This document shows, one piece after another, positions 3,186 through 57,554 of a stretch of 64,000 nt of DNA. The translations under genes and the position numbers were made by a program. The DNA lies in the NCBI GenBank assembly GCA_008933995.1, contig WARS01000044.1:2500866-2564865 (forward strand), read 5' to 3'. How positions within the stretch are numbered: position 1 is the first letter of the stretch; each line of letters begins with the position of its first letter. The notes beneath the pieces are model-generated. The model had not been told where the DNA came from and did not search any database. It worked only from the letters and a program-made list of their open reading frames with translations. The stretch is from Datnioides undecimradiatus. Taxonomy: Eukaryota > Chordata > Actinopteri > Lobotiformes > Datnioididae.

Positions 3186-6100
3186 TCAGAGGATGATGCA
3201 GCAGCGGCACAGACGCTGGCCACCTCCATGTACAGAAGGTGGGGGTGTCACTGGGGCAAAGTAGGCATGGACCTTGATCTCTGGAAGGTGGGCCTGGGGA
3301 GGAAAGAGTTGTGTTACACGAAGGTAAGAAAAGAAAAAAAAACAGAGAAGAAAAACATGTGGTCATGCTTCTCAGGTGTCTTCTCAAAATTCCTATTTTT
3401 GCTTGAAGAAGTAGTTTGACGTTTTGGGAAATCCGCTTATTAACGTACTTGTTGAGAATAAAATGGGAAGATCAATCCACTGCAGCCAGCAGTGGGACAG
3501 CTCAGTTTAGCACAAAGACACGAACCAGTGACAGTACTTTTCTGGATTCATTGCAGGTAAGTTACTGTGCATAACCCCCGGTAAAACCCCAAACTGTCAT
3601 TTTTACACTTGTTTGTGTTTGTTTTAGGGATTCTGGTAGGCACATTATTTAAACTTTGGGCAGAGCCAGAGTGGCTGTTTACTCCATATTTTTGTCCTTA
3701 AGATAAAATAAGCTAACCAGCTGCTGGCCCTAGCCTTATATTTAACTGAAACACATGACAGTGGTAGCAATAATCTCATCTAGCTCTCAACGAGAAAAGG
3801 AAAAAATGTAATTACTAAAATGTTAAACTATTTGTTTAATGCCAGTAAAAACTACAGTGTATGGTTTGATAAGATTACTCTGTTGTTCTCTACATATGAT
3901 TATGCAGTATCTGAGTATAACAGAGTAGAGAAATGATTTTATGAAGCCACTAATCAGACCCGTAACATGAGCAGAAAAACAGTTGTTATTCCCAGATGAC
4001 TTCCACTGACCCGGATGCGTTTGATGCCTGCCCGGGTGACTTGCTGACAATCGTAAAGCTCAATACGCTCCAGACGATGGCAGCTCTTCAGGTGCTCCAG
4101 TGTCACATCAGTAATGAGGGGGCAGTTGTCCAGCTCCACCACGGTGAGGCGCTCTTGGCCACAGGTACTGCTGCTCAGAGCTCTGATGCCATCGTCTGTG
4201 ATCAGCTCGCAGTGGGACAGGGACTGTTCGGTGCACAGCAGTGTGGGGTTGAAGACACACAGATAAATGGATTAAAGCTCTATATTCATGCAAAAGCTGG
4301 CACAAAATCAGAACTGCAGGTGTAGATGTTTACCAGTGCTTGCAGGCGAGGGCAGTGGATAGAGAGCTGAACCAGGGTGTTATCTGTCACCTGAGGAGAG
4401 GACCAGCTTGATAAACATACTGTTCTCACATGTCTAGAGACAGACGAGACTCTTAATTCACTATTTCTGGAATCAGGTGGTGTCATAGGTGTGTTTTCTC
4501 TCTGCACTCTGTCAAAATAATTTTAAATACTGTGCACATGTGTTGGGCTCATTGTACATATTTGTCTTACCAAAATACATTCTTCTAAGTCCATTTTTTC
4601 AAGCTCATGACAATTCTGTGAAAAAAACAGACATATTTTTTGATTAAATCCAGAGATATTAAGGTGAAATGATCCAACAAAAAGTTCAAAGAAGGGAAAA
4701 CAGGACAAACAGAGCAGAATGAAACCCACCCTGGCCAGCACAGTGAAGCCAGCATCTGTAACATGGGAGCATCGTGCAGCTTCAAGGATCCTGAAAACAC
4801 ACAGATACACAAACAGCTTGTAAAGGCAGCCTAGATGGTGCAGGTTAGCGTGATGTGTTACTATCATTGATCATAATTGTTAGGCAGCCATTGGGCATGA
4901 AGAGGTAGCTAGTAGACTTCACTGGGCCAGCACACAGTAACTAGGTTTAGGATCAGATGTCAGAGATCCTTTGTTTGACTGAAACATTGTGTGTGTTGTG
5001 TGAAACAATGTGTAGTGCCTTTTCTTTTGTTTGCCCCAAAGAATATGGAAGGACAACACAGGTGAAAAAGAGACTTTCTGTGGCATTTTCAGAGACCTAA
5101 ATGACTTGCAAATACAACAAATACCAGATTTTAAACCATTTCTTTGGAAGTGATAGTAGTCAGATTCCCTGAGAGGGAGATTTTGTGGATACTGAAGCAA
5201 GCTTTTAGTGTCCTTGTGTCCTGATGTGTGTGTGTTTTTCTCACTTGAGTCGGGGACAGTTGAGTCCCATTGCAGTGAGGGAGGCATCAGTGATGTTACT
5301 GCAGCCAGACACACAAAGGATCTGTAGCTTGTGGCATCCTCGGCACAGGCTGACCAAGCCTTCATCTGTTATTTGCTGGAGGCAGCAGACACACAAGACA
5401 AATTACACAAACACAGAAGCATCCAGACACATCCCTCATGCATTATTATGTGCCTCCCCGCACCCACACAACCAAATGTTTGTCTTACTGTGCAAGACTG
5501 CATATTGATGGTGGTGAGTTCTGGGCAGTGTTTCTGAAGGTGTTTCAGCGCTCCATCGTCCAACTGGGTTAAAATACAAAATACACTTTACTGTTAGTCA
5601 AACACCTCAATTAATCATTTCTGTATGTGTGTTGATGTATCCGCAGTGATGATTGTGGGGGCTTTGTAGGTTTTTTCCAGACAAGACTTCAGAAAAAATA
5701 AAATTGCAAAAAGTGACCAAACTGCCTGAAGAAAATAGTTTTCTCTACGAAGGCAGCAGGAAAAGAAAATGCCAGCCTGACACAAAACCACTACATAAAC
5801 AAAAAAATTACATGAACAAAAATTAAAATTAAATTACATGAACATAAAACATATTCCATGGGATGGAAAATCTTCTGTGAAACAGCAAGTGAGTCAAAGG
5901 GCACAATTCACTTTAGTGAAAAATGTTTTTTTAAATAATCTAGAAATTTTAGGTTTTTGTTTTGAGTTTAATATTTTATCCTTAAATGAAGTATATTGTG
6001 AGTTGTTTTACCAGCAGAGGACCCTGTTTACAGTAAACTAACACCACAATGTCTCGATGCATGGGAGGATAATAACCAGATCAGTTAAAGACTTTCCTTT

Positions 6101-28793: not shown

Positions 28794-31700
28794 AATCTTG
28801 CTTAACCTGCAGGACCACAGTATGTAACGTTGTTGGCGGTGTGGTGAAAGCAGTAGATGTTAGAACAGAAAATGCCACAGAGGATACTGCACATCTGGAC
28901 GCATTCTGCATCAAAGACAAAGGTCAGTAAAACAAACACAACATTGTACAAACTCATAATTATGAATCTGATGTGAGTAAGGGTATGAATGGATGGGCAC
29001 ACATAATGTATGTACTTCTGTATGCTTGTGTGTCAAAGTTTTCTTTCCTGAGATATGTACTGAGGTGTGATAGAGGCTCTATTCCTGCACTCCTTCCATC
29101 TACACCTCTACTTTCAACACAGTCCATCCTGCAAGTGTGTGTGTGTGTCTGTGTGTGTTTGTGTGTGTGTGTGTGTGTGTGTTTGCACAGGTTTGATGAG
29201 GTTGTCATTATATTGGAGATGTCCAACATTGTTTTGAGCACCAAAGTGATATATTATTATTTTAATAGCAAATATATATTATTGTTTGGTTATATAAAAT
29301 TTCAAACGCATTTGATGCAATCATATTTTGGTGGGAAAATTTGAAATCTAAGGAAACCTTAGATTAAAAGTGGCCATTGAACTGACTGACTGTCTGCATG
29401 GAGGGAAAAACAATGCATCAAAACATGTGTTAAAAAAAATGCAGCAATTGCAGCAATTTAAAGAATTGGATTTGATTTGTGAGTTTGTCTGTCTATATGT
29501 GTCAGCCCAGCGACAGTCTGGCAACCTGTCCTGGGTACCTCCATTAAACCATTACCATTAAAGATGAGACCAGAGTCAAGATAATGCAGGCCTTTATCTC
29601 ATCTCTGTGGCATTGTTAGTGATTGTGTTCAAAATTACATCCACATTTCCACAAACCCCATTGCCTCCCATCCCTTGAGATACTCTTATCTATTTCCTTT
29701 TTACAAACAGCAATGCTGTAAAGCTGGATAATAGTAATGAGTCATGTGTCATTGTGTAGTATTGAATAGGGATTGCATTATCCTTATTGAAGAGGTTGTT
29801 CAACGAATCACAACATATACGTTCCAATATGTATATTGTTTTCTTTACATGAATCTCTTTGTGTGTTGTTGATAGGTGTGCCGTGCGGGGACCCACCATC
29901 TTTTCCTAATGCCCGTCTACAGGGACACTCTGGATATGAGATGGGAGACGAGCTGCTGTACACGTGTGTGCCCGGTTATGTAATGCCCAGTGGGCACAGT
30001 GCCTTCAGCCTGCTGTGTGACAGCTGCGGAGAGTGGTATGGACTTGTGGAGATATGTGTTAAAGGTAAGAAGGTCTTTAAACTATTTATGTTGAAGAGTG
30101 GCACAGAAATGGAAAGAGACAGAAGAAGCCCCCCTTTCTTATTGAGAGCTTTGAGGTTCGACCCAGACAGGAGACCACTGTAAGGTCAACGTCTTCTTGC
30201 TTGTTAGCTCTCATTGTTGTTAGGTGACCAGCGCTTGATTCCTGGCTCTTGGAAAACAGAGTCTCGCTTGTGAGTTGGGATGAAAATGGCTGCTATGACA
30301 CCGCAGTGTGACATGCCATAGTGTGGCCCACTTCATAGCAGAGGGAGAGGGGCAAGAGTTGTCTGTGAAGTCAGAATGCTGGGCCTGTGGATAGCTAATA
30401 TGTTTGTGACTGCAATTCTTGAAAGAGATAACATAGGACAAGATATATTTCTGTTACACATAATTAGACTTGTCAGAAAATTCCTCTTTTGAATTTGATG
30501 TTTGATGTAGTTTTATCCCCTGATCCAAGTAAACGTGTCCTTGTGTTGTGTTTCTGCAGACGAGACTGAAAGTCATGTAGACTATGAGGACAAGTTCATA
30601 GATTCCTATGGAGAGGCAGAGCACCACACCCAGAGACCAGAGGAGGCTCATGGGGAGGTGCATGAGGAGCTGCACAGAGTGGCACACTCAGAGGGGAAAT
30701 CTAGTCAGGAGCAGCAAGAGACAAGCTTCAGTGTTGAGGTGGAGGATGAGCATCAAGACCAACATGAAGAGCCTGATGTGCAAGGGGAGGTGATTGGCAG
30801 AAAATATGACAGTGAAGAAAGAGAAACAGAGGATGAACGGGCTGTTGGGCACTATATAGGCCATCCAACTTGGGAGCAGGGGAGAAGGGAGGTGGTCACA
30901 ACTGATGTAGCCGCGGCCACAGAGGCACCTGTCTCTCTTCTCTCCCAGAAACACCTCTTTTGGTTCCCTTCTGAGGCCTTTCAGGATGAGGGACATCCTG
31001 TATCCACCAATCCAGCCACGCAGACCACACAGAGAGCCTCAGGTGCCCAATCAGAGGAGAGTAAAGAGAACGAGAGTCAAGAAAGGTACCATCACCAGCA
31101 TCCTGTTGACCACCATGATCATGAGCCAGACAGCTATGATGATCATGACAGAGACGACCAATATGATCATGACAACAGTGACCATGACAACCAGGATGCC
31201 CATGATAACAGCCACCACGACGATCAAGATGACCATGACAGTCACCAGGACGAAGACAACCATGATGATCATGGGAAACACTACATTCCAGCAGAGGGTG
31301 ACGATCTGGATAGACTGGACCGCCACGAAAGTCATGAAGATCATGATGACCATTATGACATGGGGGAGCACGAAGAGAACCGCGATCGCATTCGCTACGA
31401 GAGCCAGGACTATGATGATCGAGATGATACTTACGACGAACACGAAAGCTATGAAGATCACAAGGATGTCATCGACGATCGAGAACATCCTGATGTCTCT
31501 AAGGAACATCCAGAACATGATGATGATGAGGAGCATTATGACACTGAGGAAGATGACCAACACAATGATCACGATGACCATGATCATGATGACCAAGATC
31601 ACGATGACCATGACCATGATGACCAAGATCACGATGACCATGGCCATGATGACCATGATAGCCATGAGGATGTAGATGGTGGTCATCAGCATGTCATTTT

Positions 31701-32487
31701 TTCTATAGCAGCAGATGAACGTCAGAATGTCACTCAGAGGGGAGAAGGAGAGGCCACCACAGATGAGACCTGGCTGGATGGTTATCCTGTCCACCCAAAG
31801 GAAACAGACAATGGTGGCTCCACAAATCAAAGGGTGAGGCCAGAGGATAGAGAAGGGGGAGCGGTCGTCAGGACAACTGACAAACCCAATGAGGTGGAAG
31901 TTCGGAGACCTGGCTCTTACACCAGTTTACCCGAAGCACCTGAGTCTGCTAGCATAGAGCCTGTCTTGGAGCAAGACGGCACAGAGGAGATGTGGCCCGG
32001 CTTCATCCCCACCACTGCTCCCTCTGCTGACCACGCACAGTCACAGCCATCAGACTTCCCCTCATACTTTGACGCCCTGGACTACGACACACAACAGGTA
32101 GCTCCCACCCGCTCCTGGCTTGAGGACCTCACAGAGGACCCTTTCCTCCATCATGACCTAGCTCCACCGGTGAAAGATGGAGATATCCTGATGGAAGAGC
32201 ACACTTTGCACAACCTGCCTGGTGAGACTGGTCAGAGGGGTGAGATCGAGGGAGAGATGGGGGAGACGATCTGCACAGGCGAGGACTGCCCACCGCCAGG
32301 CTCTTCCAGCCGAGGTCCCACTGTGGCAGCAATAATTGTGGTAGTGTGCGCAGTTGCTGCAGCAGTCATCGTTGGATTGTGGTGTTACCGACGACAACAA
32401 CAGAAGAGCTCAATGTACGAGATGAACGGAAAGGGCCAAAGTCAGACTAGACAAGGCCAACAGATAGAGATGCAGCAAAAAGTGTAA
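23166..32487 (+). CDS. susd5: Sushi domain-containing protein 5 (SUSD5), Link + Sushi type I membrane protein, 5 exons
   Basis: Exons 23166-23253, 24483-24660, 28813-28922, 29876-30064 and 30560-32487 join in phase (2493 nt, 830 aa plus stop) with GT-AG introns. Residues 1-27 form a hydrophobic signal peptide. Residues about 30-125 (exons 2-3) form a Link module (ERACASRHARLASSAELRHA, GWLYGG) of the hyaluronan-binding family. Exon 4 encodes one Sushi/CCP domain (CGDPP, YTCVPGY, CGEWYG) and carries five cysteines rather than four. Exon 5 encodes a long acidic ectodomain with a His/Asp-rich block at about residues 363-562. A transmembrane helix follows at about 777-798 (AIIVVVCAVAAAVIVGLW), then a 32-residue cytoplasmic tail starting RRQQQKSS. 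The Link-Sushi-TM order is that of SUSD5. Hyaluronan binding is inferred from the family. It lies in the CRTAP-SUSD5-FBXL2 synteny block and is tail-to-tail with crtap. Confidence 0.93.
25335..25440 (+). repeat. short remnant of GATTAATC-family teleost repeat
   Basis: It starts AGTGCTGCAACTAACTGTTA, the characteristic end of the family seen at 14.1 kb, in susd5 intron 2. Confidence 0.4.
26448..26797 (-). repeat. tRNA-derived SINE in susd5 intron 2
   Basis: Read on the minus strand, the element begins GGGGAGTGGTGGTCAAGTGG, which contains an RNA polymerase III A-box-like word (TGGTCAAGTGG). About 50 bases on comes a perfect B-box GGTTCAAATCC. A tRNA-unrelated body follows, including GCCCTTGAGCAAGGCCCTTA, a word common in teleost SINEs. 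The 3' end has AATTTCCACTCGTGGATAAATAAATC and a short (TTC)n tail. The open frames across it are incidental. Confidence 0.7.
27159..27277 (+). repeat. (CT)n(CA)n compound microsatellite
   Basis: CTCTCT block followed by CACACA and CTCACA variants, in susd5 intron 2. Confidence 0.95.
28747..28793 (+). repeat. (ATCT)n tetranucleotide microsatellite beside the susd5 exon 3 acceptor
   Basis: About 11 perfect TATC units end roughly 20 bases before the AG at 28811-28812, so the pyrimidine-rich repeat forms most of the branch-point/polypyrimidine region of susd5 exon 3. Confidence 0.95.
29135..29182 (+). repeat. (GT)n microsatellite
   Basis: Imperfect GT run in susd5 intron 3. Confidence 0.95.
31591..31650 (+). 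repeat. susd5: two in-frame 30-bp tandem repeats in susd5 exon 5
   Basis: 31591-31620 and 31621-31650 are identical except for one base. Each encodes ten residues alternating Asp, His and Gln. They sit at the end of the His/Asp-rich block and suggest growth by slippage or unequal exchange. Confidence 0.9.
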
Positions 32488-35902: not shown

Positions 35903-37447
35903 TTAGTGTTTTGGTGGGCTTTCCAGTGTGGGGTAGTCATCCTCATCCAGGAACTCATCTATAAACTCCACCACTTCCCCCTGCAGACACATATACAAAA
36001 AAAAGAAAAAAAAAATCAGGAGGAGGAGCGGTCTGTTTTGTGTCAAAGTGATATTCTGCACCAAGTGAATTAGCACAAATCCTCCCACTCAGTTTTATCT
36101 GTGATTTCTCATACCTGGCATTACTAAAGAGATTACAGTCAAGAGCTGAATGGTATTTACCACGTACATCATGTAATCCTGGCTTATGCTTGGTTGCCCT
36201 GATGGCCACAGACCTGGTGCTGCATCATAATAACTTACAGTGTCATGCTGCCATCCTATGGCTATCTTTCATACTGCAGCCTGATAAACACAGGGGCCAC
36301 ATTGTACTGCAGCCACTCATGTGACTTGAGAGAAGTATCCGGGGTTTTTCCATAAGTTACACAAGGACAGATCCTGTGTGAGCTGCAAAAACAACCTAAT
36401 TCAAACTTGAACTGATTTCATGGGAATCATGCAGGCCAGTTTTTAAGTGTGCACTGTGACTTATGTTCCCTTGACTTGACGAAAGCTAAACTCTATAGGT
36501 GGCTATTGGCATCTTGTGAAGCACAAATAAAACAAAGATGTGTGAACACAGGCACGCACCTCATCGTCGCTCACCAGGTGCTGTCTAGAGAACTCCAGCA
36601 TCTGTAGCTGCATGGTGGTTTGATTGTAGTAGCGCAACGCCTCCTGTAGCACACACACAGGTACACAACAGGTAATGTGAGTTATTGTGAATCAATGGCA
36701 CAAAACATGAAAAGATGGTAGAGTTCAAGTGTTCATTCTATTTAACATGTACTTAGTCCAGTAAACCTCTCAGAACTAGTGTGATATTTAGGAAATAAAG
36801 CTTATTTCCTTTACAAAGCCTATTTGCTTTATTGTGAAGGATTTGGTTTGAATGTTCATCGAAAATGTGGCTGCCAGCAACTGGATAGCTTAGCTTAGCA
36901 CAAAGACTGACTAACTGGCTGTTAGCTGTAACTTAGCACACAGACATCAAATGGGCATTTATCATTTCTAACTCTTGGCAAGCAAGGAAGTATGCATCTT
37001 TCCCAAAATTTCAAATTATTTTCAAGGTGTTCTTATGAAGAAGAGTATATGTAGTATTTCAAACTAATAAGTCCGTCTTTTTTTCCCCAAAGACACAAAC
37101 TAGGGACAGAAACTGTGTGTGCTTCATTGTGGGTGCATTCAGTTTGTATTCATTAATATGTCTCACTGCTCTGGGGAGGAAGTCCTCCTCCGTCAGTCCC
37201 CACTGGCTTTTGTGGAACTCGTAATAGGCCACGTTATTCTTCATAACTTCATCACTGGGGTCAAAGAGCATGTAGCTGGCTGCACATGGTACTGCGTTCT
37301 TCAGGTCATTCACTGGAAACACAGCATTTACAGCACTTAAAGCAAGGATTTTCCTTGATATGGGACATGACACATTGGATCTTTTAAAACTGCAAAGGTG
37401 AGTACTCTGATTTTGCAACCATATTTTAAAACAGGTTCAACATGTAC

Positions 37448-37486
<39 letters not shown>

Positions 37487-40400
37487 CAACAACATACTAC
37501 TCACATTTGTAATAGGCAAACTGCAGATAGTGGTACATGGTGGCCACAAACTTCTCCACGACGAACCCTCCAACGACTGGTGTCAGGTCACTTTCACACC
37601 TCACTTTCCTCTCAAGGACCTCTATGTAGTGGTCTGTAAAGGAACAAAATCAAAACTCTGCAATAGACTGCCTGAAGGGATTCAGAAAAATAGCACAGTG
37701 AAAGCTTAATCCTACAAATAACAAGAAACAGGAAAGTCAGAACCGTGGTACTGAAGGTGAACCAGGCGTTAACTGACCAGCTATGGAGGGGTAGAAGTCT
37801 TTAAAGTCTTTGACATCCCTGGGGCCCTCAGACGCTGCCAGACACTCGTCATAGATCTTGAAGAAGTCCCTCAGAGCCAGCTCCATGTCAGACACCGAGG
37901 TACGGAAATTTTCCCCATTATAGGCACGCACTGCACGCACAAACAGAGTCTGGAAAAACACAAGCAGAAGAAAATATCATGTAATGTTCAGTTTTGGTAT
38001 TACTGGATCCCCCATGTGGTTAAATGCTAATGGTCAGTGGTGAATGATCAGTACAATGATTAGGTGCTACATCTGGGACACAAATACATTTCAGCAGCTT
38101 TGATAAGGTAAAGTATGTTTGCCATTCCAAATATAAAAATACAGCTGAATAAAAAACATCCTTTCTCTCATGACCAAGTTATAAAAATTTACAGACAATC
38201 TGAAAAACATAGTTCATTACAAGTATCATTACATACATTTTCTAAGGGCAAACAGAGATGAAACCTCCTCTAAACCCCATCAATGTCCACTAAGGGTGCC
38301 CAAGCCGTGTATCTAGGATGCACTAATGCCGCTGAATGAATCTTCCCATGATGGGGTGGGTTCACCATAGGCTGGTACCACATCAGCACACCCACAGAGC
38401 CAATAATAGTATGGTTTGTGTTTGCAATTCACAACCAAAGTCATCTCAGGGCACTTTACAAACACAGCAGGTCTAGACCACACTCATTACTATTAATTAC
38501 ACCCAACAGATCCACCATGAGCAAGCACTTGGCAACAGTAGCAAGGAAAAACTTCCTTTTATCAGGCAGAAACCTTGGGCAGATCCTGGCTCTAGGTGGA
38601 CGGCCATCTGCCTTGACCGGTTGGGGGGAAAGAGAGAGAGAACATACAACATATGCACCTACACCTGTGCGTATACCTCATAGGATTTGGTCTCCAGGTC
38701 TTTAAGGTGCTCCTCAGCTCCAGGCAGACTCTTGTAGTAGGCCATGTTCCTCTGCATCATCTCATCATCTGGGTGTTTGAGCAGGAAGGTGTGTGCAGCA
38801 GACACTGCCTTGGCCAAATTGTCAGACTGAGTGAAAAAACACAAAATTATAAAGAGGTGTTTGTCCTTTTTTTGTTCTCATCATTAGCTAGAAATAAAAC
38901 AAATGCAATGCAAACACTACACTGTAGACAGAAAAATAGCAGTAAAGAGATTGGCCACTGATAAATCACTAATAAATAATTCCTTAATAACACTGAATCA
39001 AGGACTGACTATTTGGTAGATAATTAGAAATGTAACATTGATCACTTATTTCTCTGTTACTACTCAGCTTTTTGTTTACCTTATGATTAAATGGCATCGC
39101 CATACTTTCTCATGTCAGGGACCCCAAAAGACAAGAGAAACCCTGTGCACCCTATTGGTGTGACCCATCCTAAGATATCCACTGTTCCATATGACTGTTT
39201 ACACTATATGTAGTAATTGACAATGGTTATATAATGTGCCATCATCCAGAGAATGATACTATAGTAAGATCAAACTACTCTAAAACAGGCACTTTAGAAG
39301 GCAGGTCAGGTGACAAATTAAAGGCAAACCCAATAACAATGTGCCATATAAGGTATAAACACACACCTGCAGAGCAGCTTCAGTTCTCCTGAACATAAAC
39401 TACACAAGTTTTTGTCACATGAGCACCTTTGTACTGAGAGGCATTTCCTTGTTTAGTGTTTTGGTGCTGTCAAACATATCAGTCCAAAATCCCTCATCCA
39501 GGTTAAATTGTGAGACATCTGACAGTTTGTGACAACCATGTCTTTGGATTTGCAACATTTTCATACTGATCGAACCATTCAGTGACAGTTGGTGATATTT
39601 TTGATAACAACCCACAATTATATAGCACAATAACAGGCAATACAATAGAATTATAGGTATGTACTTGGGTAAAGTGGACCTAAACCATGCCAGAAGAAAT
39701 GAACCCTGCCTGCATTTGTTGTTTCTCATTTTATTTGCAGTATTTAGGGTTTTCCTTTAATTTGTCTTGCCATTGTTTTATATACATTTATTTATACAGA
39801 TACATTCATTGCATGTGTAAACCTGTAAACCTGAATAACCCTAAATCTCATTATAATTCCAACATTTGCCCCTGAATGAACCTAATCCTTTATTCAGACT
39901 GGTTTCCACAGTAGTTTCTTTAGAGGTAATGAGCTGTAAAATGTCCTCATGCGTCCTTATAAGGGGCCTCTCTCCTTGTACTTTTTTACTCAGGTGTACA
40001 CAGGTTGAAGTTCAGGACCTTCCTGTTTAGGAACAGAGCTCCCTGTGCATCCGTGGCACGTATGTGACGTCAGAACGTATTTCAGTGACGTTGTTGTGTG
40101 GAAATCGTGTATGCACAGTAAAAAACATCATCTTACACTGAAAATCCTAACAAGGTAACTACAGACGTGTAAAAGTCCTCTGTGCTTGACCTCTATTGGT
40201 GATTTGCAGCAGCCCCTTGACCCCCGATGATCCCAGCATAAATAACAGCATTCCTTACTTTGAAGTAGGCGTACTGCAGGTATCTGTACGGCTCTCGCCT
40301 CTCAAATTCATCTATGGTGTCTCGACTGGGCATAGTCTGCCTGAAAGCAGGCAGCCCCTGTTTGCAGCGCTTCAGGCACTGCGCCCTCTTCATAACGTTA

Positions 40401-40720
40401 CCAAACGCCCGCAGCTCTGGAAACTCCGCAAACTTCTGCTCGTCGTCGAGCCTGACGGAGCTGCAGTTGAGGTTGCAGAAGGCCTCGCTGTCCCGCAGCA
40501 GCCGATACAGCCTGAGAGACACCTCCATGTACTCCACCGTCTCCTTCCACTTCTCCCCGGTGTACTGGTCCAGTGCGTATTTGTAAGCGGACTCCAGAGG
40601 CATCAACTCATTCCTAGGGAAACTCCTGAAACTGTATTTTTCATACTGAGAGTTGGCACAAGAGGCGAAAAGGGCGATTAAAAGCCCAAAGAAGAGTTGG
40701 GAAGAAATGGAGGGTGCCAT
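35903..40720 (-). CDS. crtap: Cartilage-associated protein (CRTAP), 7 exons
   Basis: Non-catalytic member of the prolyl 3-hydroxylase family. In vertebrates it forms an ER complex with P3H1 and cyclophilin B that 3-hydroxylates a proline in fibrillar procollagen chains. Exons in transcript order: 40720-40259, 38826-38677, 37949-37778, 37633-37505, 37312-37167, 36643-36560, 35980-35903. They total 1221 nt (406 aa plus stop; human 401) with all junctions in phase. Residues 1-24 are a signal peptide ([20 protein letters not shown]). The mature protein starts [19 protein letters not shown], nearly identical to known CRTAPs. Paired CxxxC-type motifs ([14 protein letters not shown]) and TPR-like helices ([22 protein letters not shown]) follow. 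The C-terminus is acidic and lacks KDEL and the 2-oxoglutarate dioxygenase domain, as expected. An in-frame ATG lies 5' at 40813, but the internal ATG gives a clean signal peptide and is preferred. It is head-to-head with fkbp9. Confidence 0.95.
36770..37025 (-). repeat. teleost MITE-like repeat, crtap intron 5
   Basis: It contains GGATAGCTTAGCTTAGCACA and, at the right end, TTTCCCAAAATTTCAAATTATT, the same terminal words as the copy at 3.4-3.8 kb. It is decayed. Confidence 0.6.
37451..37485 (+). repeat. (GT)n microsatellite
   Basis: Pure GT run beginning about 20 bases past the exon 4 donor of crtap (minus-strand donor at 37504). Confidence 0.95.
38425..38632 (+). repeat. teleost dispersed repeat (AAGGAAAAACTTCC family) in crtap intron 2
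   Basis: The words CAAAGTCATCTCAGGGCACT, AGCAAGGAAAAACTTCC, GGCAGAAACCTTGGGCAG and CGGCCATCTGCCTTGACCGG occur in order, diagnostic to me of a repeat spread widely in teleost genomes. It lies just beyond crtap exon 2 on the transcript side and does not touch the splice donor. Confidence 0.65.
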
Positions 40721-41859
40721 TTTTAAGTTTGCTATGGAGGAGTTTGCTAGAATGATGCCCCCCTCCAACGGTCGGTGTGCGTGGGTCTTTAGGACCGCCT
40801 CAAGTTCCACCACGTATCTGGACTAAACCCCCCCTCCCCCGGGCGCAGGGCTGGAGCAACCGCTCCTGCTGGCAGGGGCTACTGGAGCTGCTCCTCCCAC
40901 TAAATCACTAAGTAAATCACTGTTGTTGTTCTGTTCGTACACAGGACGTGTAAAAGCTTGACAGAGACAAGGAGTTTTATAACTTCATATGAGAACTGAG
41001 GAAGAAAACCCTATAGTTTCCCATAAAAGGCAGTGTAATTTTGCATTTTCAAAACAGGACTTGTCAGCAGCTCGTTATTCAATGAATGACTTCTCTTCTA
41101 TGTTATAAGTTGCTTCCTCTAGGTCACTAATTGGACCCCTGGTGAGAGTGGAGTGTCCCTCCCCCTGCCACTGCCACGTAGAGACATTCCTGCCGGGTTT
41201 GCTCCCCTCCAAAAGGCCCGAATCCCACTAACACAAAAGGATCAGTGTATACCGCCATGCACGAGGAAACTTTATTTGTCCTGCTCTTTGTTAAATGTTT
41301 ACTGGAATTTAGGAGGCCAGATGCGCGCGCTATTCTGATTGAGACGGATCCAGAAGGGGTTGTGCCTGCAGTTGTGTGAAGACCCCTACGTTACCACGTT
41401 GACATATCTTAGAGGCTGCACTGCGCAGGAGCAATACGTGGTGCCCAAAACTATCCCATCCAAGCCTAAAGTGCGTCAAGGGAGCCTAGAAGCTGTAGAA
41501 CTAGTAGGAAATTAATACATTGATTTCAAAATAAAAGCACAATTGGCTAACTAGAGCTTTCTTTGCATTTCCTTGTGCCACATACAGACATAGGGGTGTA
41601 TATTCTCAATGATCTCCTTAACGTTCTGTGGATAAAACTTTGCATTTTGTGCCACAAGTTTGAAGCTTTACCTTTAAAGTCTAACCGGATGTTGTGCATT
41701 TTTTGTCTGTCTTGACACGTGATCAGCCCTTTGCTGGGACCGGAGGCAGGACTTCTATCCAAGTCGGAGTAGAGGAAACCAGAGCAACAGAGAAGCGCGT
41801 ATACATATAGGCCGTTCCCGCAGTTGTCCTCATCGTCGGAGAGTTTGTCTGTAGCTAAA
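40721..41859. promoter_or_regulatory. shared crtap/fkbp9 bidirectional promoter region
   Basis: This is the whole 1.14-kb interval between the divergent crtap and fkbp9 start codons. It has elevated CpG, no TATA box at a clear distance from either start, an NRF1-like half site CTGCGCAGGAGC at about 41421, and seven ACGT tetramers (starting at 40812, 40946, 41176, 41388, 41396, 41436 and 41717). ACGT is the core bound by ER-stress and CREB-type bZIP factors. No other gene is present. Co-regulation of the pair is inferred from layout. Confidence 0.6.
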
Positions 41860-44800
41860 ATGACCCAGTGCGTGCAGGGGATGTTGTATTTGTCGGTTCT
41901 GGTGGCGTTTGCCGCCTGCAACGCTCCTCCGGTACCGTTAGACGACATTATCATTGAGAAAACTTTCGTGCCAGAGCAGTGTGTGCGCGCCGTCAAAGTA
42001 GGGGATTATGTTAGGTATCACTACATTGGCATGTTTCCGGACGGCAAAAAGTTCGACTCCAGGTGAGTTTGAAGCAAAGAATGAATTGATTCACACGTTA
42101 GTCTGATCGTGCAGAGCAGACCGGGTGCACGGCAGCGTGCGCGATGCGTAAAGTGCGCGTCTAGTGGTTGGTCCTTGTTAGCCACGCAGGCAGGGAGACA
42201 GGCTGACTGAGCTGTGGATCCATAAGTACTTAAAGCCAAAAAAACTTTTTCATATCGACCACCACCACGGGGGTTACACCGAGATATGACTATTTAATCA
42301 GGTGGACATTTTCGCCATTAGATATAACCATATATATTAATCATATATAGTAGCTTACTTAGTCACATTAGGTTAATTGAAACCTGGAACAACACTTTAT
42401 GTTTGATGTTGAACCTGCTTCCAGGCCCGCTGAAGTTCTTTGGATTCCACTTTAGAAACCACTGTGGTGACTGTCCATAACTGCAAGGCCCGAGATGCAC
42501 TTTTGGCCATTTGACTTTTGCTCATGAAATGTGTAAATTATTGCCACTAAAGTGCAATATCACTAGGGTGGGCCTTGTAGTGATAGCTAATGTTGTGTGC
42601 TTGCATATATTCCTAAATAAAGTCACATTTGATAAAGTTTGGCTCAGCCACATGCACCTGTATGAAATATCCTAAAAAATTACAGGCTGGTAATGGTTGG
42701 TACAATTTGAATGTCACATTCTGAATAACTTGAGTTCAGGCTCAAAATGACAATGCAAAAATCAAACTGCAATTTGCACAAGTAACTACAATTAGATCTT
42801 GGTGCATCCCCTTACACCGTACTACTTTCTGATGAATCTGAGCACGGGACAGTGTGGTGTAATATGAGCTAGTCTTCAGAGCAAGAGGAGTAAATTTGCA
42901 TCCAAATCTGTTCCAGTTACGACCGTGGCAGCACCTACAATGTGTTTGTTGGTAAGAAGCAGCTGATCGAAGGGATGGACAAAGCTCTGGTGGGGATGTG
43001 TGTCAACCAGCGAAGTCTGGTGAAGATCCCGCCTCATCTTGCCTACGGAAAACGGGGATATGGTGTGTATGTTTTAAGTGTGTTTTAAACTTCCCGTCCT
43101 ATCAGTGCATCCCTGTGTCCCATCACCACTGATTGCTCTGAATCATTCAGGTTAGAATGTAACATGTTCTCTGTTAAGTTAGTGGACAGGCCTGTGTTTA
43201 TTCCTGTGGGAAGTCATTATAAATACACAGATGAGTGAGCACATGGCTGGCACTGCTCATCATAACAGTCAGAGGATTCAGTCAGACTCTGGCAGATGTA
43301 CAAGAGACAAAAATTACAGTCTTTCTACAGAAAGTGTCGGACTGTGTTGTACTAGAGTCAGGCGAAGTAGAGAGGAAGTGGGCTGCTTCCCAGCATCCAT
43401 GCTGAATGATGTAAGAGGTGCGTCACAAAACAGGAAGCAAAATCTTAGATCAAGATTTTCAGATGATAGTAGAGGACAAACTCTTGATCTGTCTATGAAC
43501 ATAAATAAATCTGGGCTTCTGTCCAAGTAAGACAGTGTTTTATGCCAAAAATTTTATTAGATTATAGTGGTGAGAAGAAAACGTTGTAGCTCTGTTTACA
43601 TAAAGAGACGGGTGTGCATATTTGTGTGTGTGTGTGTGTTTGCATGAAATAGTTAGATAATCGGAGAGAGAGTGGAGGCGTGTGTGGACAGGTAAAAGCT
43701 GAGGCAGTCTGTATTAGAGGGAACATCAGAGAGAAAGAACAAAAACACAGAGATGAGGTTTTGAAGGAGGAGGACAGAGATTTAAACCCGGAAAGAGACC
43801 TGCCACGCCACCTCATCAGGAGAGAAGACTTAATGACCACCACCCACGTAGTCTTAGCACCCCTCTTCCAACCTCACCCCCTGCCACTCTCATCTACAGT
43901 TTTTTACTGATCTAACAATCTATGGTCTAATAATATATATACTCACCCACATTTAACCATGACAATCAATCAGCCAACAAATATTAATACTAGAATTAAA
44001 TGGAATAAAGATTTCAAGAGATTTGCTTTTCTCTCCTCTTCAGGTGACATCATTCCTCCTGACTCCATCCTCCACTTTGATGTCCTGCTGCTCGATGTGT
44101 GGAACCCAGATGATGGCGTCCAAATCAACACCTACTACACACCATCAACCTGCTCCAGAAAGGTGGAGGTGTCTGACTATGTTCGCTACCACTATAACGG
44201 CACCCTGCTGGACGGGACCCTGTTTGATTCCAGGTTTGTTTAATGTAAAAACTCATTCACACACAGACTGGCACATAAAAAAGAGACCCACATATATGTG
44301 TAACCTCCACCCTCCTTTGCAGCCACACCCGTATGCGTACCTATGACACTTACGTTGGTATTGGATGGCTGATTGCCGGTATGGATCAGGGTCTTCTGGG
44401 TATGTGTGTTGGAGAGAGACGCATCATCACTATGCCACCATCACTTGGATATGGAGAGAATGGTGACGGTGCGTATTGACAGTTTCTTTATTATTATTAT
44501 TATTTGTTTCTGTGAACCCGATCACATTCCTGAGTGAGTGACTTTAAAGCCCTTTAAAGCATCAACTCTTCTGTAAATAACAAGAGATAATAATAGTTGT
44601 AATGCAGGGTGGCAGGTCATGTAGTTGCATACTTTGAGCATAGGGTGTCAGTACATCACACAAATATGCAGTTACACTGTATATCTCAGTCTTGTCATCA
44701 ATAATAATACCAACAAAAACTACAAAATTACATACAATTACATGCAGCAAGTGCTTCACGTAACACAGAACGAACATAAAAATAGGGATAGATTGTCATA

Positions 44801-47548
44801 ATTACATAAATATGATTAAAGTTAGATAATCCCGATCAATCTCTTTGCAAAATGTAACTTCCATAATACATTTTGTCTTCTAAAGTCAGACTGGAAACAG
44901 GGAGAAACAGATTACCCTGACTATTTAACACGCTGTTTCTTATTTGGTTAACCAAAATGTGTAAAAAGGACAACTTAACATTTAACGTTGTGTATCAGAC
45001 TGATACTTAGCTACATAGCTTTTAGTCTAACCCTGACCCTAAACCCTAGTCCATTACATGACCCGTGGTTTTATTTGAGGTCATGTGAGTTACAGATTTA
45101 ACTAATGAGTTGCCTGTTACATAGTGAACTTTAGATATACTACAGATAGTACACGCTACCGTTTTTAGGCTAAGCTAAGCTAAGCTAAACAAAGATAACT
45201 AGTTGCTGACTGTAGCTTTATTAGGCTGCTCATCCAGCTCTCACGAAAGGAATAAAAATGTGTAAATGTATTTCCTAAGATACCGAACTATTCCTTTGAT
45301 TGACATTTAACATTTTGTGACAATATTTATACACAAGAGACATTTTTTCTTCAGTAGGGTCTCAAAGTCTATTCTTTTACTAGCAACACGTTCAGTTTAC
45401 ACATTTTCCAATTAACCTCCAACATTAAAGTGAGAGAGAGTGAGAGTATCAACATCATTTCACCAACATTTAAGTTAGATTTTCTGTATTATGCCAGATG
45501 TATGAAAAATACAAAAAACAACACAATCATGTAAATAAATTATTCTTTGATTTCACTCAGTACTTACATCAGTAATGTTGTTGTCATGATTACATGAAGA
45601 AGAATGATGAGGATTATTTCTGCAGTTCATCTCATCCTCCTCTATCCATACCTGTCTCCATACGCCTCCCACATCTCATCCTCAACCTTTGTTTTCTTGC
45701 AGGCAGTGACATCCCAGGCCAGGCGTCCCTGGTATTTGATGTCGTACTTCTGGACCTCCACAACCCTAGAGATACGATTACGGTGACCAATCAGATCGTC
45801 CCTGAGTCCTGCACGAGGAAGACTGTCTCTGGAGACTTTGTCCGCTACCACTACAATGGCAGCCTCCTGGATGGAACATTTTTTGATTCCAGGTGTGTGT
45901 TTCAGTATTTGCTAATCCTCAAGTTAACCACACAGCATACTTCTTTAGTTTTAAAATAGAAATCAATGTGTATTAGCTGTTGTTCCTCAGCAGCCTCAGG
46001 GTGGCAGCATTTCTCTGTGCACTGAAGATGTGCCGAGGGATGAATCGAAACTTAACCACTACTGGGAATGGTTGGTCAGCAGACAAGCAGTAAAATTATG
46101 GACTGTAAAGGTATTAACATATTTTATGTTTTCGGTTGTTAAAGGTCGTATTTGCTTATCATGTCTACAGTCTATGCAGACTATAGAAGCGAAACACAAC
46201 AGTAATTACTTTACAATAATGTAAAAGTTACAGAGTTTGGACTGTCATATCTTTAAAACCTTAAAATTTAAAACTCTAAAAAAGCGATGCCTACAGATTC
46301 TTAATTGTGTAGTTATGGGTTAGGAAATAAACCTAATAATAAAAATAATCTCCGTAAGGTTGACAGACTATATCAAACATGTGGTTATAATTTGTAGAAA
46401 GGGAACCTGCTTGTGTCGAAGAAAGATTTGAGAACAACGATTTGACGCAGGATCAGTCAGCAACCTTGTGGGACTTATTTGAAGATGCAGAATACAGCCT
46501 CAACAATCAAATGGCTTTCTTGAAGCAGCACCCATACAGTTTTTAGTCACCAAAGCATCACCACAACATCCTGCTTTGCTTCGCTATGTGTATGTGTGCG
46601 TGTGTGTGGGTGTATGTGCGTGTATGGACGGTTCTATCTATTCTCTATTTTCCGTCAGTTATCTGATATTACACCATAAACTCCCAGAACGTCCCACAAA
46701 GACCAGAACAAACATGCTTTGATCAACTAGCCTTACCTTCACTACACTTGAAACACCTGTTTTGATACTTTGCATGAGATGCTAAAAGCTTTGCTTAAAT
46801 CTTACCATGTCTACAAAATATGTGTATTTTTCAGGAAATCCTCTTAAACATTCTGTACAGGCTTTATAGAGTCACAAAAGTTAAGCTGTTAGTGTGACAC
46901 ACATTGCCATCAGATTGACCATGTATTTTTTTCTTTTTGGAGCTGTACAGTAATACATTTACTAATATTTTTTTGTCCCACAGCTACTCTCGTAATCACA
47001 CCTATGACACCTATGTGGGTCAAGGCTACGTGATTGCAGGCATGGACCAGGGTCTGATTGGAGTTTGTGTTGGAGAGAAACGCACCATTACCATCCCCCC
47101 ACATCTTGCATATGGAGAGGAGGGCACAGGTGTGTGTGTGTGTGTTTCAGATTCCAACGAACAGCACCCAACTCCATCACTCATACATCTTTTGTACTTG
47201 TCTCACCAAAGAAATCTTGTGTCACTCTATGTGTGTGTATGCGCATGTGTCTGTGTGTATATGTGTCGACTTTCTTATCATTTTGGAAGGTCAGGTCACT
47301 CTGATTTCTGTGACATTTCAGAGGTAAACAGAATCAGTAAAAAACATCCTTACCTCATACGACTGACCTCGTACAAGGACAGAACTTACCCCAATTAAGG
47401 TTATCCAGAGGTAAAGAGAATTAGTACAAAACAATTCTCGCCACCGTGTACACCACAGATGTAGTGTTTGCTGAGTGACAATCATGTTCTTCCTTAACTG
47501 TATCAACATTTATCCTCCTTTGACCACAGCTTTGTCAGCCCCTTACCG

Positions 47549-47612
<64 letters not shown>

Positions 47613-49861
47613 GCTCCAAGATCCCTGGATCAGCTGTGTTGGTGTTTGACGTTCACATCATTGATTTCCACAACCCGTCAGACAGCACTGAGATCACCGT
47701 CACTTACAGGCCAGAGGAGTGTGAGAAGCAAACAAAGAAAGGAGACTTCATCAAGTATCACTACAATGCCTCTCTGATGGATGGCACAGCTATCGACTCC
47801 ACGTGAGTAAAACCGAGAAACCAAGAGACACAAAGTCTCACAAAGTCCTGGAGAAATATCACCTCATCTTAGATTTAATGCTTTGTCATCTCATCCGTGC
47901 TAGAGGGATAGTTATAAGTAGTGTGGTTAGGAATATAATGGAGGTACACTCAGACTTGACATGAAGTCCATAGAATATGTGCTTCTCCGCTATCCGCTGT
48001 ATCTTGTTCAGCTGTTGATGCTAGCACAGACCGTACTTGATGAATAGAAACTTACAGAATTTAGACAGAGGATTCACACAAGATTAAATGAAGATACGTA
48101 TGCAAAAAAGATTAACTGAAACCCAATGAATTTCTTGAATAAATGAGTGAACACATATCAATTTTCCAGCACCATATAATAACTGATGATGAGAACTACT
48201 TATATTCTGCCACAGTGCACATGTTTCTCGTCCATCCCAGCAGTTAAAGCTCCTTTCAGTATTGTTTAAACAATACAAGCAGCAAGGTTACATTCATGAG
48301 CCATTTTTTTCTGACCAACGCCCTTGACAGAGAAAAGATAAGAGCTTCTCACAGTAAAGGATGATGCTTTGATTCAATGGTCTCTACACAGTGAGGTCAG
48401 TTGGTAAAACGATAAAAACGATCATCTGATTTACATACACAAAAAACATTTTCCAAAAACATATGTGGGAGGCCACTGTAAGAAGTAATATACATGTGTT
48501 TGCTAAGATATCATAATTTCTAGAAATGCAGATATGTTGTTGGTCTCAGTTTCTCTCTGACATTTGTTTATCCTGCTTGTCCTGTTGTTTATCCTGTTTA
48601 GGTATAATTATGGAAAGACATACAACATTGTTCTGGGAGCTAACCAGGTAGTCCCAGGGATGGAGGACGGACTGAGAGAAATGTGTGTGGGAGAGAAAAG
48701 GCACCTTGTCATTCCTCCTCACCTGGGTTACGGGGAAAGAGGAGTCAGTAAGTCAATTTATTATTGTTTATGGATCCTAGATGGGAGAACATTCAGAAAC
48801 CATTAAACACTTCTTGACATATATGTACTCTTTGACACTCCACATAAGGTTGGATCAGTTGTACTGCTGGTCTCTGATCTGATTCAGTCATTGCTTTAGA
48901 AACCCCATCTAACATAGGAAAATGTGTGAAAAACAGGAAACAGCAAACCACGAGACACACCCACATGATTTAGCACAGTAAAGGAGAATATAGTGTTTGT
49001 TAATATCAGCGTGAGTTCCGGTGGAAAACAGTCACACAGTCAAAAGCAAACTCAAACATACATACTCCAACAACAAAAATGAACCTTGTCACAAGAAAAC
49101 AGTAGGTGCATCTGTTATCTCTGGCATGTCATGTTTTATGTATCTGATGCAATAGTGTGTAAACAGTTTTGGATTTATGGAGTCAGTGACCTCTGGGAAT
49201 CCTCAGTTGCCCTGGCAACCAGCGTAGACTTTTATTTAACACTGTACTGTTTTCTGTTTCCAGTACTGACGCTTAACTAAAGTATGAATGAAATCTGTTC
49301 ACAAACTGTTGAGATATTGTGCCTAACTAATGAATGTGTGTGTGTGTGTGTGTGTAGCTGATGAGGTTCCAGGGAGCGCTGTGCTGGTGTTTGACATCGA
49401 GCTGGTGGACATGGAGGAAGGACTTCCTGAAGGCTACATGTTCATCTGGAACGACGATGTGTCACCTGACCTTTTCGCTGAGATGGACAAAGACAGCAAC
49501 AAGCAGGTGGAGCCCTCTGAGGTGAGCGATGGCCTGCTTAATGGTGCAAGAGATTACATGCAGCCTTGATAATAATAAAACTATTTTCAATGTAAAGATA
49601 CAGTGGAGTTATGTCAATCAAGGGAGAGAATGAAGTTTCGATTTCAATTTACAATCTTCCCTCCCCTCTTTCTTTCCCTAGTTTACTGACTACATCATGC
49701 GGCAGGTGAATGAGGGTAAAGGACGCCTGGCTCCTGGCTTTGATCCGTATCGCATCATTGACAACATGTTCTCCAACCAGGACCGCAACGGAGACGGAAA
49801 GATCACAGAAGCAGAGTTCAAACTTAAAGCAGACGAATCTGCCGCCCATGATGAGCTATGA
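41860..49861 (+). CDS. fkbp9: FKBP prolyl isomerase 9 (FKBP9/FKBP63), 10 exons
   Basis: ER-lumen peptidyl-prolyl cis-trans isomerase. Exons 41860-42062, 42917-43062, 44044-44233, 44323-44468, 45703-45892, 46984-47129, 47613-47802, 48602-48747, 49358-49521 and 49682-49861 join in phase (1701 nt, 566 aa plus stop; human 570). A signal peptide covers residues 1-21. Four FKBP-type domains lie at about 48-136, 160-248, 272-360 and 384-472, each with RYHY/KYHY, DG..FDS, GMDxGLxGMCVGE and IPPHLAYG motifs; domain 4 is weaker at the DGTAIDST segment. Two EF-hand loops follow at 496-507 and 541-552. The protein ends in HDEL (563-566), an ER-retrieval signal. Several NxS/T glycosylation sites lie in the FKBP domains. 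The HDEL end and motifs such as [13 protein letters not shown] and [13 protein letters not shown] identify FKBP9 rather than FKBP10, which ends HEEL. Calcium binding and isomerase activity are inferred from the family. Confidence 0.95.
44886..45299 (-). repeat. teleost MITE-like repeat, fkbp9 intron 4
   Basis: Third copy of the palindromic family in the window. It contains CAGACTGGAAACAGGGAGAAA at the left and AGATACCGAACTATTCC at the right, with AGCTAAGCTAAGCTAAAC inside, in inverted orientation relative to the 3.4-kb copy. Confidence 0.65.
47551..47611 (+). repeat. fkbp9: (TC)n microsatellite forming the fkbp9 exon 7 polypyrimidine tract
   Basis: TCTG units pass into about 50 bases of pure TC that run directly into the CAG acceptor of exon 7 (AG at 47611-47612). 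The repeat is therefore the polypyrimidine tract itself. Confidence 0.95.
49335..49357 (+). repeat. fkbp9: (TG)n run ending at the fkbp9 exon 9 acceptor
   Basis: A TG dinucleotide run leads directly to TAG at 49355-49357, with exon 9 starting at 49358. A conventional C/T-rich tract is absent. Confidence 0.9.
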
Positions 49862-53724: not shown

Positions 53725-54640
53725 TTACTCAGACGTAGACTCCATCAGTGACAACTGGTGCGCCTTTTTGCAGTGTGAGAGATGGATCAAGAAGCTTCTT
53801 TGTGTGATTTTTACTGCTGTTGGCGTGGTCAGGAGGACTTGGAATGGTCCCTCCCACCTTGGGCTGACCCAGGTTTTCTTTTCAATGACTTTGATGAACA
53901 CCCAGTATCCTGGAACAACGGTAGATGTTGGTTGTTCAAGCTCCTGTGTTGGAACAGAGTTAGCAGATGGAACACTTTTGTTAGTCAACATTTTTCTCAT
54001 GTAATCAGCTAAGGTCTCTTCTGCTGCCTCATCAGTTTGAGTGAATGGTTTCAACTGTGGGATGACGTAGAGTCTCCCATACATCATTTCAAATGGTGTA
54101 AGACCTGTGCTTGTTGGTGTCCCATGTATATTTAACATTACTAGTGGTAAACAATAAACCCAATTCTTTCCTGTTTCCTCCATAGTTTTTCTCAGTTTGG
54201 ACTTAATAGTTCCATTAAATCTTTCTACCAACCCTGCTGATTGGGGTGATATGCACAATGATTTTTTAGTTCTATATTTAGATTCTTTGCTATCAGAGAG
54301 ATGACATTATCGCTATATATTCTTTCTGGAATTCCAAATCACGGTATTATTTCTTTAACCTAGGCTTTCGCAACTGTTAGTGCGTCTGGGTGTGCACAGG
54401 GAAATACTTCTACCCATTTTGTGTGCATATCAATTATTACCAGACAGTATTTCTTTCCTTCACATTTGGTAAGTTCAATGAAATCCATACAAATGTATTG
54501 GAATGGATACTCAGGTTTTGGAAACTGTCCTCTTTTAGGTCTTAAATTACTTTGTGGATTATGTTTGTACAGATTTTACACATTGAACAAAATTTTTTAG
54601 AGTAATTTGTAAATCCATATGTTGTGAACCCCAAAACCCT
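53725..54640 (-). pseudogene. retroviral integrase (pol 3' part) relic, broken
   Basis: On the minus strand the core-domain pattern is readable (LVIIDMHTKWVEVFP, FGIPERIYSDN, VERFNGTIKSKLRK), followed by a C-terminal segment with PGYWVFIKV and WEGPFQVLL, typical of gammaretrovirus- and epsilonretrovirus-like integrases. A CxxC remnant of the N-terminal zinc finger is present near 54.57 kb. Breaks seen: in-frame stops at 54362-54360 and 54341-54339, and a one-base frameshift at about 54241-54250. The final 177 codons (54258-53725) remain open. Reverse transcriptase, protease and gag are absent, so a large internal deletion separates this from the LTR-like segment upstream. Confidence 0.85.
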
Positions 54641-55255: not shown

Positions 55256-55389
55256 AACAGGATAACTAAACAGATGTTAGAGTTAGTGCCGTGCTGAGGG
55301 AAAAATAAAAAAGACTGACCGGTAATACAGAGGGAAAACCAAAAGAGGACTGCACAAGCCAATGAAACAATGAAACGTACAAACCAAAA

Positions 55390-55436
<47 letters not shown>

Positions 55437-55900
55437 GCACGTGCAGACGCTTGATGGCCTTTGGCAATGTTGACCAGTGGCTTCATCCACACACTGCAGA
55501 TTGATCTGTGAGAATCTTTGTGGGGTCGAGGAACATGTCCCCAGACCGCACAAGTTAGCAAAGTGCAGATGCATCTGTTTTTAGAGAGGAAAGGAGAGAA
55601 GAGAGTTTTTATTGTCTTTAACGATGTACGTGGTACGAAGAATGTTTGTTATGGAGCAGCGTGAGGTCTCAGGGGTGTGAAGGACTTCCATATAGGAAGT
55701 CTTACTGACTTACTAGGGTACTTACTGACTCTTTCTCGCGCATCTTCGTTTACTGTGTGTACCATAAACATGGTTTGAGCCGACGTTAGAGTTAGTGCCT
55801 TGCCCGGGTCAAAACAGCAAACAGGATAACTAAACAGATGTTAGATTTTAGGCCGTGCTGGGGGGAGAAGTAAGAGAAGAAATGTAACATGTATTGAGCT
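55256..55900 (+). repeat. left arm of a large inverted repeat
   Basis: This arm is the reverse complement of 57034-57744 over nearly its whole length, with few mismatches and small indels. It includes a (AC)n run at 55393-55433. A related 120-140 base segment (GCCTTGCCCGGGTCAAAACA) occurs twice in direct orientation, near 55.16-55.28 and 55.73-55.85 kb. On the minus strand it offers AATAAA at about 55601, downstream of the enclosed ORF. Confidence 0.9.
55393..55433 (+). repeat. (AC)n microsatellite inside the left inverted-repeat arm
   Basis: Pure AC run. Its mirror (TG)n is at 57511-57553 in the right arm, so it was present before the arms were duplicated. Confidence 0.95.
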
Positions 55901-56797: not shown

Positions 56798-57033
56798 GAT
56801 GAGGCTGTCTTTGTATCCCTTGTAGTGGTGGTAGAAGTGGTGGGTGACTTGTGGCTGAGCATATATGTGTATATATATATATGTTTTAAGGATTCACCGC
56901 CCCTCTTCTCTTATTGGTTTTGGTTTGTACGTTTCATTGTTTCATTGGCTTGTGCAGTCCCCTTTTGGTTTTCCCTCTGTATTACCGGTCAGTCTTTTTT
57001 ATTTTTCCCCCAGCACAGCACTAACTCTAACGT

Positions 57034-57507: not shown

Positions 57508-57554
<47 letters not shown>

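Follow-up and report, generated by a model that had tools for sequence, protein, structure and literature searches.

A divergent crtap-fkbp9 gene pair in the fish Datnioides undecimradiatus and its relation to P3H4-FKBP10 pairs

Described divergent pairs and the crtap-fkbp9 locus

The closest described relative of the locus reported here is the mammalian pair formed by P3H4 (SC65) and FKBP10. In mouse, exon 1 of Sc65 (P3h4) and Fkbp10 are separated by less than 900 bp and run in opposite directions, and common regulatory elements for the two genes were regarded as likely in the description of this layout (PMC4847768). We analyzed a stretch of 64,000 nucleotides from the genome (581 Mb) of the fish Datnioides undecimradiatus (contig WARS01000044.1, C480 in our numbering, positions 2500866-2564865; hereafter the window), where members of the same two families, here the paralogues crtap and fkbp9, were found in the same divergent layout. 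This pair and two p3h4-fkbp10 pairs located elsewhere in the genome very probably descend from one divergent CRTAP/P3H4-FKBP9/10 pair that would have preceded the early vertebrate duplications (2R).

Two other head-to-head systems offer a comparison. The COL4 genes form three such pairs in one mammalian genome, COL4A1/2, COL4A3/4 and COL4A5/6; the first of these is conserved across metazoans and, according to titles cited in the same source, its bidirectional promoter has been the subject of published studies (PMC12141075). These pairs involve a single family and encode the matrix itself, whereas the window pair encodes unrelated helper proteins of the endoplasmic reticulum (ER); by analogy, crtap-fkbp9 could be a comparable case of a divergent pair kept through duplication. 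CRELD2 and ALG12 are, like the window genes, ER-related and placed head-to-head, in their case less than 400 bp apart, and an ER stress response element (ERSE) is reported to regulate that pair (PMC3091781), whereas the stretch between crtap and fkbp9 is devoid of an exact ERSE. No direct report of the crtap-fkbp9 pair was found in the open-licence literature. We know of no bidirectional promoter work on it.

The window genes were delimited by chaining exons between GT/AG borders. The gene crtap occupies 35903..40720 on the minus strand and is composed of seven exons coding for 406 amino acids, from a start codon at 40720 to a stop ending at 35903 (40720-40259, 38826-38677, 37949-37778, 37633-37505, 37312-37167, 36643-36560 and 35980-35903). 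Two exon chains passed, and these were one residue apart at exon 6, which may also be read from 36640. The tblastn matches of gar CRTAP agreed with the exon positions, exon 1 (40259..40720, minus strand) among them, and the small last exon was not matched. The protein gave a Pfam match to TPR_leprecan with an E value of 3.9e-115; this domain and TPR_P4H were the sole Pfam domains detected, and the catalytic hydroxylase domain was absent. In the PDB, human CRTAP from the P3H1-CRTAP structure (8k0e_B) was matched with an E value of 1.2e-184, and the scores were 617 bits for human CRTAP versus 185 bits for P3H1. The top fish match, a perch record carrying another name, was 92% identical; among records named cartilage-associated protein, the highest identity was 90%. 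Judged on its sequence, the product is leprecan TPR-like, non-catalytic and nearer to CRTAP than to P3H4, and the gene is named here on these grounds. A scan of viral contigs for CRTAP gave no confirmed match.

The gene fkbp9 was located at 41860..49861 on the plus strand, with 10 exons (41860-42062, 42917-43062, 44044-44233, 44323-44468, 45703-45892, 46984-47129, 47613-47802, 48602-48747, 49358-49521 and 49682-49861) encoding 566 amino acids that end in HDEL. Eight exon chains passed, and the one fitting the relatives was chosen; the tblastn matches of gar FKBP9 agree with its exon positions, including exon 1 (41860..42062, plus strand) with the start codon at 41860. Pfam recognized four FKBP_C stretches and an EF hand. 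Identity to FKBP9 records reached 95%, with sea bream as the best named match, and comparison with the human proteins, whose sequences were entered by hand, gave 71% for FKBP9 versus 59% for FKBP10. The predicted protein, with its four FKBP_C domains, EF hand and HDEL terminus, is therefore nearer to FKBP9 than to FKBP10.

Both genes are complete and point away from each other, crtap on the minus and fkbp9 on the plus strand. Exon chaining set the distance between the start codons at 40720 and 41860 to 1,139 bp, in agreement with the 1.14 kb given for two divergent genes in an earlier, sequence-only reading of this DNA; the first exons of crtap and fkbp9 have their 3' ends at positions 40259 and 42062, respectively. 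Bidirectional gene pairs have been defined as genes on opposite strands, divergent, and with transcription start sites within 1,000 bp of each other (PMC2648788). The window pair is divergent, and its 1,139 bp is a start-codon spacing, whereas the definition counts the spacing of transcription start sites.

Sister pairs in the genome and linkage in other vertebrates

Profile searches of the genome for the FKBP_C and TPR_leprecan families, whose counts are lower bounds, returned at least 37 and at least 33 matches, respectively. Four FKBP_C matches each were found at the window gene and on contigs C193, C196 and C465, and three on C334, which were two-domain in appearance; the TPR_leprecan matches fell on the window gene, C193/C196, C465, C315, C312 and C307. 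Stretches of 10 kb around the C465, C193 and C196 loci were then read with tblastn. The gene order at C465 was nt5c3 (+), fkbp10 (-) and p3h4 (+), and C193 and C196 had the same order; the p3h4 and fkbp10 start codons were 1,111 bp apart at C465, 2,558 bp at C193 and 2,557 bp at C196. The last two loci, both on 1.11-Mb contigs with nt5c3-fkbp10-p3h4 (L013, L017), were 99.64% identical over 9,993 bp and are probably alternative, uncollapsed haplotypes. The genome thus contains further paralogous copies of both window genes arranged in this way, as p3h4-fkbp10 at C465 and C193/C196, and the orientations read at these loci and in the window place all three distinct fkbp9/10 genes found head-to-head with a crtap/p3h4-type gene. 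Within 3 Mb of the other leprecan loci, on C315, C312 and C307, there was no FKBP_C match among the 37 listed. The sequence-only reading had supposed that fish kept the crtap-fkbp9 copy of this layout and mammals only P3H4-FKBP10; this division does not hold for the present fish, which has both kinds, and p3h4-fkbp10 twice.

The assignment of the paralogues was examined in trees that comprised jawed-vertebrate rows only, and neither lamprey nor any invertebrate such as amphioxus. The C465 and C193 rows were stitched from tblastn pieces and the human FKBP10 row was entered by hand. FKBP10 (human, C465 and C193) was separated from FKBP9 at 100/100, and within it the fish rows from C465 and C193 grouped at 94/91. 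The FKBP9 side contained the window gene, gar, elephant shark, Xenopus, turtle and a Latimeria record labelled FKBP10; this record (P0216, named FKBP10 isoform X2) is probably mislabelled. The CRTAP clade was supported at 98/99, and the p3h4 rows fell outside it. Several exons of the fish p3h4 genes were matched best by gar CRTAP, and the name P3H4 is used for these genes because of the tree, a C-terminal P3H4 match and the neighbours, not because of pairwise identity.

In the mammals examined, published sources put P3H4 and FKBP10 together, and gene lists of cattle put CRTAP and FKBP9 apart. One cattle window, on BTA19, lists JUP, P3H4, FKBP10, NT5C3B and KLHL10, and another, on BTA4, lists RP9, NT5C3A, FKBP9 and KBTBD2 (PMC12075139); CRTAP, SUSD5 and FBXL2 are given for BTA22 (PMC12837429). 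A human chromosome 3 list contains GLB1, TMPPE, CRTAP, SUSD5 and FBXL2, and FKBP9 is not among the genes of that list (PMC4074351). P3H4 and FKBP10 thus stay paired in mouse and cattle, and CRTAP and FKBP9 are apart in cattle and in human, where we take FKBP9 to be on 7p. The presence of NT5C3B alongside the cattle pair has its counterpart in this fish, where nt5c3 adjoins both fkbp10 genes; a third nt5c3 locus was found on contig C307, away from fkbp9.

For other species, linkage was scored when the longest contig of the CRTAP protein cluster and that of the FKBP9 protein cluster had the same length. The rows were the best 120 of 711 and of 762 matches for CRTAP, and the best 120 of 2,106 for FKBP9; once rows without a species or contig were omitted, 138 species were represented for CRTAP and 68 for FKBP9, with 21 shared, and all counts of this comparison apply to the matches listed. 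Both proteins were on contigs of identical length in 10 of the 21 shared species, that is, in eight of 12 ray-finned fishes (gar, sterlet, Aplochiton, Chanos, Merluccius, Myxocyprinus, Polymixia and Stigmatopora) and in two of nine amphibians (axolotl and Spea), whereas equal lengths by chance were seen in none of 9,363 cross-species pairs. Since gar and sterlet carry CRTAP and FKBP9 on identical-length contigs, a recent rearrangement within teleosts, which the sequence-only reading had named as a condition against its own proposal, is improbable as the source of the linkage. Among the same matches, CRTAP was represented in Paramormyrops by a cluster without contig (P0094) and a second one (P0107), and FKBP9 in Brienomyrus by two rows (P0172 and P0199) whose contigs differ in length; osteoglossomorph fishes may retain both teleost copies of the crtap-fkbp9 pair.

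The intergenic stretch and the origin of the pairs

The intergenic stretch (40721..41859, 1,139 bp) has a GC content of 0.47 and a CpG observed/expected ratio of 0.57, versus 0.37 for the whole window. The ratio rose to 0.99-1.14, in 400-bp windows, in the CpG-rich region that covers the 5' end of fkbp9 (41601..42300), and to 0.65-0.74 over crtap exon 1, where the rise may partly reflect coding sequence; a valley of about 0.4-0.5 separated the two rises. The ERSE and ERSE-II consensus sequences were not found in exact form in this stretch, and one sequence similar to an unfolded protein response element (UPRE), TGACGTGA, was observed near the C465 fkbp10 start.

A 33-bp block at 41667..41699 (+), located 160 bases ahead of the start codon of fkbp9, has a counterpart 156 bases ahead of that of C193 fkbp10, and the two agree at 26 of 33 positions. 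An equally good match was obtained in none of 1000 first-order Markov resamplings when offsets of up to 15 were allowed, and in none of 300 with offsets of up to 60. The block was the best of six promoter pairings compared; the window-C465, C465-C193 and three leprecan-side pairings gave nothing clearly above shuffles. Its 23-bp core (41677-41699) contains ACCGGAWGT, which we take to be an ETS-like motif. Exact copies of the core were found genome-wide only in the promoters of fkbp9 and of the C193/C196 fkbp10 gene (C193 and C196 counted as one); no site had one or two mismatches, and 22 sites had exactly three, versus 19 hits for the reversed control. This uniqueness is by itself expected, because the pattern was derived from those two sites, and what counts would be the similarity of the two sites and their near-equal distance to the start codon.

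The 15-mer TTTCAAAATAAAAGC (41524..41538, +) was shared by the three head-to-head intergenic stretches, and in each of them it points the same way with respect to the fkbp gene. With up to one mismatch, it had four hits in 194 kb, all of them inside these stretches, and the longest common word was of 15 bases, whereas two kinds of Markov resampling, run 1000 times each, never gave more than 11; when 1000 triplets were drawn at random from real sequence, however, 14 of them shared a word of at least 15 bases. Genome-wide, 493 exact copies were counted in 581 Mb, versus 4 for the pattern read backwards, and the 15-mer was rejected as a private element of the three pairs, being a dispersed motif. 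It was given little weight because it is widespread in the genome. Its reverse sequence led to nothing useful in the literature on fish promoters, and Rfam returned nothing at gathering score.

The three pairs very probably share a common origin, and the pair from which they descend probably preceded the early vertebrate duplications, an account that is well supported. An ancestral divergent pair had been proposed in the sequence-only reading, and the three pairs of this genome, the mouse P3h4/Fkbp10 layout and the linkage in gar and sterlet all agree with it; the support is now stronger because this fish has all the descendants. The ancestral unit would have been a non-catalytic leprecan gene beside a four-domain ER FKBP gene, divergent and older than 2R. 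Those duplications would have separated crtap-fkbp9 from p3h4-fkbp10, a later fish-specific duplication of p3h4-fkbp10 would have generated the C465 and C193/C196 copies, and the break between CRTAP and FKBP9 would have taken place on the lineage to human and cattle.

Several observations weigh against this account. The p3h4 gene of C193 was 43-51% identical to CRTAP versus 49% to a human P3H4 sequence entered by hand, and that of C465 37-41% versus 43%; the latter also forms a long branch whose placement is unsure. For the C465 and C193 genes, start codons were chosen by eye. No nt5c3 gene was found beside fkbp9, either in the window, in the 60 kb that follow it (with a human query entered by hand) or on C480 (by family search), and the remaining locus is that on C307; in this fish, the earlier claim that both pairs sit near NT5C3 paralogues thus stands for fkbp10 and falls for fkbp9. 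Between the C465 promoter and those of the window and C193, no shared block exceeded chance, as judged by shuffles, and the 23-bp core is missing from C465. Because there is a CpG rise at each end of the window stretch and a valley between, two promoters are suggested, which the two rises would fit at least as well as a single one. Among the matches listed, CRTAP and FKBP9 were on contigs of different length in 11 of the 21 species, namely in four of the 12 ray-finned fishes (Anguilla, Arapaima, Paramormyrops and Pleuronectes) and in seven of the nine amphibians, equal to seven of eight frogs (Bufo, Discoglossus, Gastrophryne, Mixophyes, Nanorana, Ranitomeya and Rhinophrynus). Short contigs were present among the Nanorana and Pleuronectes rows, and the near-equal lengths in Anguilla and Discoglossus may reflect two assemblies or haplotypes; the remaining mismatching frogs look chromosome-scale. 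Equal length denotes a shared contig, not adjacency, and the loci compared are those of ray-finned fishes, amphibians and mammals.

The head-to-head layouts could instead be independent, with a ray-finned rearrangement joining crtap to fkbp9 and P3H4-FKBP10 assembled separately. The human gene list is in line with this, as it puts TMPPE and GLB1 on the side of CRTAP opposite SUSD5 (PMC4074351), and so are the seven amphibians of nine that have the two genes on contigs of different length. Tetrapods give no clear linkage support because of these mismatches and because the matches of axolotl and Spea could be due to chance. However, independent assembly would require two paralogous families to meet repeatedly, in the same orientation and at about 1-2.5 kb, and it has to face both the promoter block shared by fkbp9 and one fkbp10, with an exact core found nowhere else in the genome, and the identical-length contigs that carry both genes in gar and sterlet. 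We consider it very improbable. Homology by way of segmental rather than whole-genome duplication is improbable as well; trees of jawed-vertebrate rows with undated duplications would leave room for it, but the block takes in a third family, NT5C3. Moreover, FKBP9 and FKBP10 are presumably on human chromosomes 7 and 17, respectively, which are two chromosomes of the Hox paralogon. Chromosome 3, where CRTAP is found, is a proposed member (PMC2566581).

With descent from one pre-2R pair as the preferred account, the layout is observed and any coordination between the genes would be a further step. Real co-regulation of the paired genes may exist, and we hold this at slightly less than an even chance. 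Each gene would then have its own core promoter inside about 1-2.5 kb of shared open chromatin, and two ER collagen-folding helpers, one leprecan-type and the other FKBP-type, would be transcribed outward together in matrix-secreting cells. More tentatively, and rather against our expectation, the unit may predate the vertebrate genome duplications with its promoter module AAGTCNAACCGGAWGTNGTGCAT, some 160 bp ahead of the start codon, still recognizable in two of the three pairs descended from it in fish, in which case the mammalian break would have cut an ancient shared regulatory region and left P3H4-FKBP10 as the only intact human unit. A separate, functional claim is that the 1.1-kb stretch acts as a single bidirectional promoter driving both genes in collagen-secreting cells. 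The short intergenic distances at all three loci and the regulatory elements that mouse Fkbp10 and Sc65 are supposed to share, in the passage cited above (PMC4847768), are compatible with this; the two CpG rises with a valley, the absence of an exact ERSE or ERSE-II, and the fkbp-proximal position of the conserved block in both loci having it argue against it, and we regard such a promoter as unlikely.

Neighbouring features and significance

To the left of crtap, sushi-domain open frames extend over 29791..32487 (+); a Sushi domain was detected in 29791-30183 (E value of 1.7e-8), and 30511-32484 had no Pfam match. We take this gene to be susd5. A leucine-rich-repeat-like piece at 3957..4271 (-), also without a Pfam match, is a candidate part of what is presumably fbxl2. 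SUSD5 and FBXL2 are the genes that accompany CRTAP in the human and cattle lists. On the same contig, fkbp14 was found at about 358 kb (L003), some 2.2 Mb from fkbp9, with an E value of 2.1e-92 to FKBP14 in the PDB. On the other side of the pair, an inverted repeat with 328-bp arms, 100% complementary, was observed at 55368-55695 and 57249-57576, and between the arms there is an open frame of 286 amino acids (56036-56893, minus strand) with no Pfam match; the whole looks like a recent mobile element. The open frame 53731-54306 (-) contains a murine-leukaemia-type integrase C-terminal domain and is a retroelement remnant.

The neighbourhood bears on a question about the Hox paralogon, for which human chromosome 3 had been proposed, its linkage to chromosome 2 or 7 being unresolved in a 2008 study (PMC2566581). 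A link of the chromosome 3 genes with chromosome 7 is favoured by the window, because crtap and susd5/fbxl2 adjoin fkbp9, and fkbp14 is on the same contig. The human map positions of FKBP9 and FKBP14 used in this argument are assumed.

CRTAP and FKBP10 are described as osteogenesis imperfecta genes (PMC4847768). Each is paired with a gene of the other's family, FKBP9 and P3H4, respectively. The literature examined does not establish that FKBP9 acts on collagen; if the pairs are sister units, FKBP9 would be a candidate functional partner of CRTAP. A fish with all three pairs would then offer a natural test of common control of leprecan and FKBP genes.

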